Shown: piece after piece, positions 9,829 to 56,364 of the stretch
How positions within the stretch are numbered: position 1 is the first letter of the stretch
Layout: every line of letters starts with the position of its first letter
Assembly (NCBI RefSeq): GCF_001693255.1
Contig: NZ_CP016474.1
Location: forward strand, 700,661 to 764,660
DNA from: Picosynechococcus sp. PCC 7003
GTDB taxonomy: Bacteria > Cyanobacteriota > Cyanobacteriia > Cyanobacteriales > MRBY01
DNA length: 64,000 nt
Direction: 5' to 3'
The notes under the pieces: generated by a model
Database searches by the model: none
What the model saw: the letters and a program-made list of their open reading frames with translations, nothing else
Told to the model about the DNA's origin: nothing
Translations under genes and position numbers: made by a program

Positions 9829-9854
9829 ACCCCCCTTTAGTAATACCTCTCTAG

Positions 9855-9870
9855 CTCCCCTAGAGGGGAG
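9855..9870 (+). terminator. Hairpin after gyrA
   Basis: CTCCCC and GGGGAG pair across TAGA, followed by AATTTTG. It lies 26 bp after the gyrA stop and could end its transcript, although the T-run is weak. It is the first of several palindromes in this spacer. Confidence 0.4.
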
Positions 9871-9907
9871 AATTTTGTGGGGCTCGCCAACACACCGGCC
9901 AACTATT

Positions 9908-9923
9908 CCCCTCTTGAGAGGGG
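9908..9923. repeat. Palindrome CCCCTCT/AGAGGGG
   Basis: A perfect 7-bp stem with a 2-nt centre in the gyrA-permease spacer. Palindromes of this CCCCTCTTGAGAGGGG type are common dispersed repeats in cyanobacterial genomes, from general knowledge. There is no coding potential here. Confidence 0.5.
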
Positions 9924-9943
9924 TCAGGGGAGCGAGCGTTAAC

Positions 9944-10017
9944 TCAAGGGATAACACCCTCCGGCTTTCAGCCACCTCCCTCAAGGGATAACACCCTCCG
10001 GCTTTCAGCCACCTCCC
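9944..10017. repeat. Two tandem copies of a 37-bp repeat
   Basis: The unit begins TCAAGGGATAACACCCTCCG and ends GCTTTCAGCCACCTCCC. Copy one is 9944-9980 and copy two is 9981-10017, identical, with the start of a third at 10018. On the minus strand each unit contains the small hairpin GGCT-GAA-AGCC. A related single unit lies at 55230-55266 beside acsF. It looks like a small mobile or palindromic repeat family. Confidence 0.85.
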
Positions 10018-10036
10018 TCAAGGGAGGATTTTTTTG
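10012..10036 (+). terminator. Repeat-derived rho-independent terminator
   Basis: CCTCCCT CA AGGGAGG forms a strong stem made from the junction of repeat copy two and the partial third copy; the run ATTTTTTTG follows. It ends plus-strand transcription from gyrA just before the 3' end of the minus-strand permease gene. Confidence 0.7.
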
Positions 10037-55183: not shown

Positions 55184-55214
55184 AAAAAAATCCTCCCTCT
55201 AAAAAAGAAGGAGG
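55184..55214 (-). terminator. acsF terminator
   Basis: On the minus strand CCTCC and GGAGG arms pair across a T-rich loop and are followed by seven T. It lies 71 bp after the acsF stop. The dispersed repeat 55230-55266 lies between. Confidence 0.7.
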
Positions 55215-55229
55215 CAAATCATCCTCTCC

Positions 55230-55266
55230 TTGAGGGAGGTGCCGAAGGCGGAGGGTGTTTCCCTTG
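55230..55266. repeat. Single copy of the dispersed 37-bp repeat
   Basis: TTGAGGGAGGTG at one end and GGAGGGTGTTTCCCTTG at the other match the complement of the 37-bp units at 9944-10017. The centre differs: GCC-GAA-GGC here, GGCT-GAA-AGCC there. The GAA loop is kept and both arms change together. It sits between acsF and its terminator. Confidence 0.75.
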
Positions 55267-55284: not shown

Positions 55285-56364
55285 TTAGCGGACTGTGCCA
55301 GCCAGTTGATCAACGCGGATCGGCTTCATCAAATAGAGGCTGATGAATTGAGTTGCATTAGAAAGATAAGCCGGCAGCTTCTTCAACAACTTCACAGGCG
55401 CAGGCGCTTCGCTAGCATCGATTTCCCGCAACTTTTCGCTGTTCTTTACACAGGTTTCGAGACGTTCGTAAAACTCAGGCTTTTCAACATCGAGGATAAT
55501 CGGGAAGACCCGGCCAGCAGTGTTGTTGGTTTCCCAAATGACTTCCTTGTCAAATTCCCGCGCATTCAAACCGATGGATTCGTAGAAACCATGGCGCTGG
55601 GTATCATTGAGATACATCGTTGCAAAAACGGACAGCAGGAAGAAACGGCACCACAACCGCGCTTTCCAATCGTTGAGGATGTTGGGCTGGGTTTTCATCA
55701 GCGCATCGAAGAAATCCCCGTGGCGGTTTTCGTCTTGGCACCAATTCTCAAAGAATTTAAAAATTGGGTAGATGCGATCTTCGGGATTTTTTTCGAGGTG
55801 GCGATAAATCTTGATATAACGCCAGTAACCAATTTTTTCGGAAAGGTAAGTGGCGTAGAAAATAAACTTCGGCTTAAAGAAAGTATAGCTGCGGCTCTTG
55901 GTGAGGAACCCAAGATCCAGAGACAGATTAAAGTCTGTCATCGCCTTGTTGAGGAAACCAGCGTGGCGCGCTTCATCCCGAGACATCAGGTTAAACCCTT
56001 CAGCCAACAGGGGATTTTTGTCCTTGAGGCGACGGCCCAATTCTTTGTAGAGCAAGAAGCCGGAAAATTCAGCGGTACAAGAACGCTCCAGGAACTCGAT
56101 GAATAGTTGCCGGGTTTCTCCTTGGATATGGTCGAAGGAGATATCAAAAGACTCATCCCGGACAAAATGGTGACGGTTGTAGTCCACGCGGAATTCTTCG
56201 ATGATCGCTTCCATCTCTTCTTCGTTGACGGAAAGATCCATCTTCGCCATTTCATCGAAGTCGGTGGTGTAAAAGCGGGGAGTCAGGATTGTTTCCTTCG
56301 CCGGAACCTTCACGCCGGGGCGCAATTCCTCTACGCCAGCAGATTTGTTAACAGTGCTTACCAT
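55285..56364 (-). CDS. acsF: Mg-protoporphyrin IX monomethyl ester aerobic oxidative cyclase
   Basis: 359 residues, full length. Ferritin-like diiron ligands are visible in [24 protein letters not shown] (130-134) and [14 protein letters not shown]. It forms the isocyclic ring of chlorophyll using O2, giving divinyl protochlorophyllide. Cyanobacteria often have two copies (ChlA-I and A-II) used under different oxygen levels; I cannot tell which this is. ATG 56364. Monocistronic, with its own promoter in the 56365-56712 spacer. Confidence 0.96.

Follow-up and report, generated by a model that had tools for sequence, protein, structure and literature searches.

Palindromic repeats beside free-standing DUF559 genes: a 37-nt unit of Picosynechococcus and its candidate nuclease partner

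Free-standing genes encoding DUF559 proteins lie beside palindromic repeats far more often than control genes do, both in cyanobacteria and in a cross-phylum sample, and the class of palindrome follows the branch of the protein overall. One such gene in Picosynechococcus sp. PCC 7003 is flanked by copies of a dispersed 37-nt repeat, and on the analogy with REPs and RAYTs this unit may be one of a set of 'three-armed' palindromic repeats that are the partner DNA of free-standing DUF559 genes, a reading evenly balanced between right and wrong. From the same analogy and from the inverted arrangement of many units, we infer that the DUF559 nuclease could move or maintain the repeats. If this is right, common but orphan bacterial palindromic repeats would gain a partner enzyme and a widespread DUF a function, and REP-like systems would have two origins, the second in a nuclease fold unrelated to the first. 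The match between branch and palindrome would then offer ready specificity pairs for in vitro cleavage tests, making the origin and movement of the repeats directly testable.

The window, i.e., the whole 64,000-nt stretch of DNA analysed (C1:700661-764660 of the 3.35-Mb genome, G000), holds on direct reading one copy of the unit at 55230-55266, immediately past the 3' end of a gene that we take to be acsF (55285..56364), and two units that abut without a spacer on the minus strand at 9944-10017, between convergent genes that are presumably gyrA and an ABC permease (Table 1). HIP1 words, the acsF-like gene and nearest matches that include cyanobacteria agree with a cyanobacterial origin of the DNA. 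The unit consists of CCTCCC-TTGA-GGGAGG followed by TG, a small hairpin and then GGAGGGTG. The preliminary description presented the 55230 copy as a second version of the repeat with kept flanks and an altered centre, and this is borne out: the flanks are identical, and the central hairpin reads GCC-GAA-GGC at 55241-55249 versus GGCT-GAA-AGCC in the tandem. A pattern combining flank and hairpin matches the window twice, both times inside 9964-10024, against 0.01 matches expected from shuffles. The tandem folds better than its shuffles (z -3.3 and -3.7), whereas the copy at 55230, with its imperfect outer palindrome, shows no such advantage when folded alone (z -0.05 and -0.64). Two extra palindromic modules accompany the tandem at 9846-9941, a BIME-like mosaic that recurs at several chromosome sites.

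Table 1. Positions of the repeat units and adjoining features in the window.
Feature	Position	Strand	Basis
Outer palindrome P1 of the 55230 copy, imperfect, CCTCTCC-TTGA-GGGAGG	55223..55239	+	Sequence
Central hairpin GCC-GAA-GGC	55241..55249	+	Sequence
Third, G-rich arm GGAGGG	55250..55255	+	Sequence; fixed part of the counted core pattern
Terminator-like stem and T-run adjoining the 55230 copy, past the acsF-like gene	55191..55214	-	2 overlapping sites versus 0.4 expected
acsF-like gene, 3' end beside the 55230 copy	55285..56364	-	ORF; best matches 87-99% identity in five same-genus genomes
37-nt unit, GGCT-GAA-AGCC hairpin at 9963-9973	9944..9980	-	Sequence, pattern match
Second 37-nt unit, direct tandem, hairpin at 10000-10010	9981..10017	-	Sequence, pattern match
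Palindrome CCTCCCTCAAGGGAGG then T-run, terminator-like on the + strand	10012..10027	+	Terminator scan
Second palindromic mosaic module: hairpin TTCCCCTCTTGAGAGGGG and third arm GGGGAG	9906..9932	+	Sequence
Third palindromic mosaic module, CTCCCCTAGAGGGGAG with an extra arm	9846..9870	-	Sequence

Beyond the window, the core pattern GGGAGGTG-N7..13-GGAGGG has 28 matches in the genome, against one for the reversed pattern. Five genomes of the same genus hold 3, 21, 16, 12 and 3 matches and one further genome, G012, holds 31, so that the six relatives together carry 86 copies and the seven bearing genomes 114; twelve more genomes share 23 matches, judged by eye to be due to chance except for one in G041, and the remaining 41 of the 60 genomes have none. 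With a looser pattern applied to the fetched stretches of the genome, 27 of 30 copies fall outside ORFs of at least 100 aa, 16 of these 27 facing the 3' end of a gene and 11 not. The core pattern leaves the arms of the central hairpin unconstrained, and with G-T pairs allowed these arms are fully paired in 106 of the 114 copies (27 of 28 in the Picosynechococcus sp. PCC 7003 genome); copies with mismatched arms are thus not as common as matched ones. Among the 81 copies with 9-nt cores, 75 are paired, compared with a mean of 49.8 and a maximum of 63 in shuffles. When each distinct core is counted once, neither the 9-nt nor the 12-nt class exceeds its shuffles, and the 11-nt class comprises seven distinct cores only, which argues for few independent arm switches. 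The covariation is carried by few arm types, i.e., GCC/GGC, GGC/GCC, GGTC/GACC, GCCC/GGGC and GGCT/AGCC. Collectively, the copy numbers and pairing counts support a dispersed, mostly intergenic, hairpin-conserving REP-like repeat; the compensating changes first read from the two window loci stand as far as the matching of arms goes, but they rest on few, block-like arm types, and a swap of the whole central block looks likelier. Thirteen of the 28 copies cluster in one short stretch (C1:2968260-2992362) around a DUF559 gene.

Aligned sites in sister genomes vary in the same block-wise manner. At the permease-gyrA site, G002 carries a single unit with GTC-GTA-GGC where the Picosynechococcus sp. 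PCC 7003 genome has two with GGCT-GAA-AGCC; the unit is absent from G001, G003 and G004 in the stretch read, and G005, whose contig ends there, falls outside the comparison. The acsF site carries the same hairpin in G002 and only a stem and T-run in G001, and G003-G005 are without the unit. In the mosaics, the 37-nt units sit with two other palindromic modules, the second of which recurs beside other 37-mers and varies between sister genomes: in one alignment G002 has, directly after a 37-mer, a 61-nt module that G000 lacks, no target duplication being seen. As read from these alignments, the block-wise hairpin differences are better explained by one unit being copied onto or converting another than by stepwise compensation.

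The neighbour of interest is the DUF559 (PF04480) gene at C1:2973851, which encodes 152 aa and has 37-mers on both sides: units lie upstream, one spans the end of the ORF, so that the reading frame ends inside it, and one lies further downstream. A second free-standing DUF559 gene of this genome (C3:99571) is accompanied by a different palindrome type, CCCCCAAATTGGGGG-like. DUF559 is present in 39 of the 60 genomes, this one included, and 41 free-standing genes, out of 78 matches in the cyanobacterial set, were scored. With a palindrome defined by six G-C pairs or more at a distance of up to 200 nt, one is found on at least one side of 34 of these 41 genes versus 38 of 266 control genes in the same stretches, and on both sides of 18 versus 2 of 266; a repeat common to both flanks occurs at 28 of 41 versus 17 of 266, and palindromes occupy 52 of 82 flank windows versus 11 of 134 other intergenic windows. 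When positions shifted within these repeat-rich stretches serve as the comparison, the shared repeat passes the 95% level at 31 of the 41 loci and the 99% level at 8. The cross-phylum set comprises 80 loci from genome_contigs, the best of 583, from at least 10 phyla going by record titles (66 of the loci offer a small ORF with flanking DNA on either side), and overlaps the cyanobacterial set by at least one gene (L202 = L108). Here palindromes lie beside 44 of 66 DUF559 genes versus 56 of 408 control genes (36 of 54 versus 50 of 336 once cyanobacteria are removed) and in 57 of 132 flank windows versus 13 of 134 other intergenic windows, an excess that is nearly gone under a stricter threshold of at least seven G-C pairs (8 of 66 versus 19 of 408). 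Both usable cases, out of eight, of DUF559 domains within large proteins are without palindromes, one of them being under the Pfam cut-off. At least eight genomes contain the palindromic repeats and have no DUF559 match: C6TT is found 184 times in G006, 83 in G041, 40 in G032 (75% complete), 24 in G058 and 23 in G056, and C4TCC 60 times in G007, 28 in G014 and 10 in G021. Such repeats would be compatible both with a lost DUF559 gene and with repeats that do not depend on one. No link between DUF559 and palindromic repeats was found in the accessible portions of the open-access full texts searched, preprints and subscription papers being outside that scope, and in Legionella segments with transposase and DUF559 genes have been reported as recombination hotspots (PMC12308824, available part).

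Palindrome class is related to the branch of the DUF559 protein. Between genomes, protein identity correlates with the sharing of flank 8-mers (rho 0.33; none of 2000 permutations as high), a test that uses neither palindrome classes nor branch motifs. Both of the latter are our own rules, drawn up after the first 41 flanks had been seen, with branches assigned to 52 of the 78 matches only. On a DUF559 tree of 123 rows, 102 of them class-labelled, class changes 22 times, compared with a minimum of 42 in 1000 shuffles; the 47 non-cyanobacterial rows need 11 changes versus a shuffled minimum of 18, and the 55 cyanobacterial rows 11 versus 19. A tree thinned to 79 rows gives 19 changes versus 33, or 42 versus 62 when unlabelled rows and the class 'other' are treated as states. 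The branch of the 152-aa protein (44 rows) comprises 24 C4TCC, 7 C5TT, 4 CCTCCC and 9 other or none, and its C4TCC palindromes (CCCCTCC..GGAGGGG) come from cyanobacteria, Bacteroidota, Spirochaetota, Bacillota and a Desulfamplus record; the closest relatives of the gene beside the 37-mers, L100 and L107, belong to C4TCC and not to the CCTCCC class of the 37-mer. The LPYN branch has C5TT in 24 of 27 rows, and the IRG branch has C5AA in six and CYTCTCC in three of 11. These pairings can coexist in one genome: in G044, C5AA accompanies one IRG gene and C5TT three LPYN genes, and the five DUF559 genes of G047 fall into three palindrome classes. Likewise, genome-wide palindrome counts, for which reversed-pattern controls give 0 or 1 per strand, relate to branch for IRG-C6AA (p 3e-4), LPYN-C6TT (p 0.015) and, in the IIPYN branch, C4TCC (p 6e-5) and the 37-mer (p 1e-6), the presence of the 37-mer being confounded with membership of a single genus and with G012, the latter having a DUF559 of another branch. 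CCTCCC, the class of the 37-mer's outer palindrome, is the least branch-bound of the larger classes (11 changes over 15 rows, shuffled mean 14.3); clustering is weak for CYTCTCC (as few changes in 13 of 500 shuffles) and absent for 'other'. Thus, by these counts, palindrome class follows DUF559 branch overall, and least so for the class of the 37-mer itself.

The DUF559 protein is likely a nuclease of the PD-(D/E)XK type with a Vsr/EDxHD homing fold, as judged from fold matches and invariant acidic and histidine residues. The two proteins of this genome match PF04480 with 98.9 and 131.6 bits (cut-off 20.6), and the AlphaFold model of the protein beside the 37-mers has a mean pLDDT of 84.1. Its best structural match is 3hrl (Z 15.0, rmsd 1.3, 94 aligned), followed by I-Bth0305I (Z 11.5) and Vsr (Z 9.6), with some mitoribosomal proteins also at 9.2-9.4 and with Hjc (Z 7.1) and TnsA (Z 6.6) in a range where Z may mean little. 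In line with the predicted fold, sequence profiles match 3hrl (9e-31) and 3r3p (1.4e-5), and 16 columns are invariant in 19 sequences, including E34, D63, E74, D76 and H80. PADLOC returned weak matches only between DUF559 proteins and nuclease models.

Where it could be called, the arrangement of units around these genes is mostly inverted. Orientation could be called on both sides in 48 of 112 loci (at the other 64, at least one side gave no clear call), and 35 of the 48 are inward-inverted, 5 outward and 8 direct (p 4e-12 for 35 of 48 against an expectation of one in four). Away from DUF559, in 40 cyanobacterial stretches, 46 of 64 pairs of neighbouring units no more than 150 nt apart, with both orientations called, are inverted. 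The 37-mer locus is an exception in that the units near its DUF559 gene are direct. The stop codon of the gene lies inside the downstream unit in 28 of the 81 loci that have one, and no target-site duplication was found. In a three-armed unit, a hairpin of one C-arm and one G-arm would be joined to a further G-rich arm through a short linker, which is TTA/CTA in many types and, in the 37-mer type, TG with a small hairpin. The clearest loci would resemble a miniature IS with palindromic ends: two units in inverted orientation, their hairpins pointing away from the gene and their third arms towards it, enclose the gene, whose stop codon often falls in the downstream one. Solo and paired ends are scattered between other genes. 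The nuclease could nick or cut at the palindrome type that belongs to its branch, recognising it in duplex, cruciform or single-strand hairpin form, and repair or recombination with other copies might then duplicate, replace or spread units; compensating arm changes would be expected if recognition depends on the folded or symmetric form. We further suggest, tentatively and with less than even confidence, that a small PD-(D/E)XK (DUF559) gene between inverted three-armed palindromes, its own recognition ends, could constitute a minimal mobile element that spans phyla and was unrecognised before. If so, a large part of the C/G-rich repeats in cyanobacteria and other bacteria would be solo and paired ends of this kind, and nuclease branch and palindrome sequence would co-evolve like lock and key.

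Very small dispersed repeats of mobile appearance have reportedly been described in cyanobacteria by Elhai et al. in 2008 (cited in PMC4390886); the present units resemble that general description, and we know of no DUF559 link for cyanobacterial small dispersed repeats. The units resemble the REP/REPIN/BIME elements of RAYT (TnpA-REP) systems as 20-40 nt extragenic palindromes that occur up to hundreds of times per genome, in mosaics and inverted pairs, and in both systems a small gene for a nuclease has a repeat type of its own on its flanks (for the REP side, PMC3733652, in part). They differ in that the partner here is a DUF559 PD-(D/E)XK protein instead of an HUH tyrosine transposase, and in having three-armed units without a constant GTAG/CGTC tag. 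MITEs and miniature IS would share the inverted ends around one small gene, as in most of the loci with both orientations called, and the gene-less ends, but here the ends are themselves palindromes, with no target duplication seen and no known transposase. EDxHD homing endonucleases such as I-Bth0305I, and Vsr, are alike in predicted fold and profile match, whereas the DUF559 gene here is free-standing between palindromes whose class tends to follow the protein branch, and neither an intron, an intein nor a mismatch-repair context was seen at the 37-mer locus. The Caulobacter VsrA protein, also a Vsr-like DUF559 protein, is needed for a DNA-damage response when a cytosine methyltransferase is missing; it differs in being linked to methylation and mismatch repair, palindromic repeats not being mentioned in the portion of the source available (PMC12907096).

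The main rival to a nuclease that moves or maintains the repeats is that DUF559 proteins are homing-type endonucleases for which abundant palindromes are safe targets, the gene being copied in by recombination between repeats that it neither makes nor spreads. This is unlikely in our estimation, though well short of negligible. Besides 3hrl, the closest characterised relative by fold and sequence is a homing endonuclease, I-Bth0305I, a DUF559-containing gene is placed in the EDxHD homing family (PMC9403480, accessible part), and there are more repeats than DUF559 genes, some of them in genomes where no DUF559 was matched. By itself, however, homing leaves unexplained why repeat class tracks DUF559 branch, also outside cyanobacteria, and why most flanking pairs are inverted, their arms pointing towards the gene; moreover, splitting a single target would give two halves, yet at several loci each side carries a whole unit. 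It is improbable that the palindromes are simply intrinsic terminators or mRNA-end structures, selected and gene-converted, and that DUF559 genes merely land in such spacers. Terminator-like stems with T-runs do occur at both window loci, the acsF site of G001 retains nothing but such a stem and T-run, and the copies that face a gene 3' end form the larger share of those outside ORFs. This explanation alone is nevertheless weakened by the copies that do not face one, by the units upstream of the DUF559 gene, by the relation of palindrome class to branch, and by the far lower frequency of palindromes at other small genes, in other intergenic windows and at Y1 genes.

Movement of the repeats as REPs by a RAYT or another Y1 transposase, as the preliminary description suggested, is very improbable. 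The size, palindromy and intergenic dispersal of the units are REP-like, and genomes with higher Y1_Tnp counts tend to have more C4TCC palindromes (rho 0.34). A PF01797 search of the genome finds two genes, a typical IS200 TnpA on C3 and, at C1:588.9 kb, its sole RAYT-like gene (L040; 203 aa), which scores 59.6 bits against the REP_Tyr_transpos model NF047646 (cut-off 80). The palindromes flanking the latter are of GTAG type (GTAGGGATTTGG / CCAAATCCCTAC, at L040:1380-1460 and 2030-2100) and not 37-mers. GTAG repeats in cyanobacteria, with RAYT genes flanked by them, are described in the available part of PMC3733652, and that description fits this RAYT-like gene, not the 37-mer. In the 30 copies of the genome read by eye, a constant GTAG or CGTC tag is absent beside the 37-mer palindromes, such words being confined to variable hairpin loops in some copies. 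Two bearing genomes, G005 (3 copies) and G012 (31 copies), have no Y1_Tnp match at E 0.001, the remaining five of the seven having one to three each; over the 60 genomes, Y1_Tnp counts do not rise with 37-mer counts (rho -0.29), and a positive correlation is likewise absent for C6TT and C6AA. Palindromes of at least six G-C pairs lie within 200 nt of none of 29 usable Y1_Tnp genes (of 30 loci, the best matches per genome, mostly IS200-type). The consistent neighbour of the palindromes is the DUF559 nuclease gene instead of the REP-associated transposase gene looked for nearby. Hardly any probability attaches to the unit being a CRISPR repeat or the LTRR of Anabaena/Nostoc PCC 7120, a 37-bp tandem repeat, despite the shared length and tandem copies. 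A CRISPR repeat is rejected because the abutting units at 9944-10017 have no spacers between them, and the sole Rfam family at the gathering score in the five loci scanned is a group I intron by the RAYT-like gene. The LTRR is rejected because a different sequence is printed for csR5, the so-called LTRR core of Nostoc (PMC2408588, Table 3, in part). As the end of csR5 resembles that of a CRISPR repeat (GATTGAAAC), the LTRR may itself be one.

The GTAG palindromes and the RAYT-like gene form a second REP-like system in this genome. The group I intron (RF00028, 64.3 bits) occupies L040:1006-1339 (C1 near 588.5 kb) and directly adjoins the RAYT-like gene; ARAGORN found no tRNA at this locus. On contig C3 (L039), the IS200-type TnpA gene is accompanied by a divergent gene, presumably TnpB-like, and the two form an IS605-like pair.
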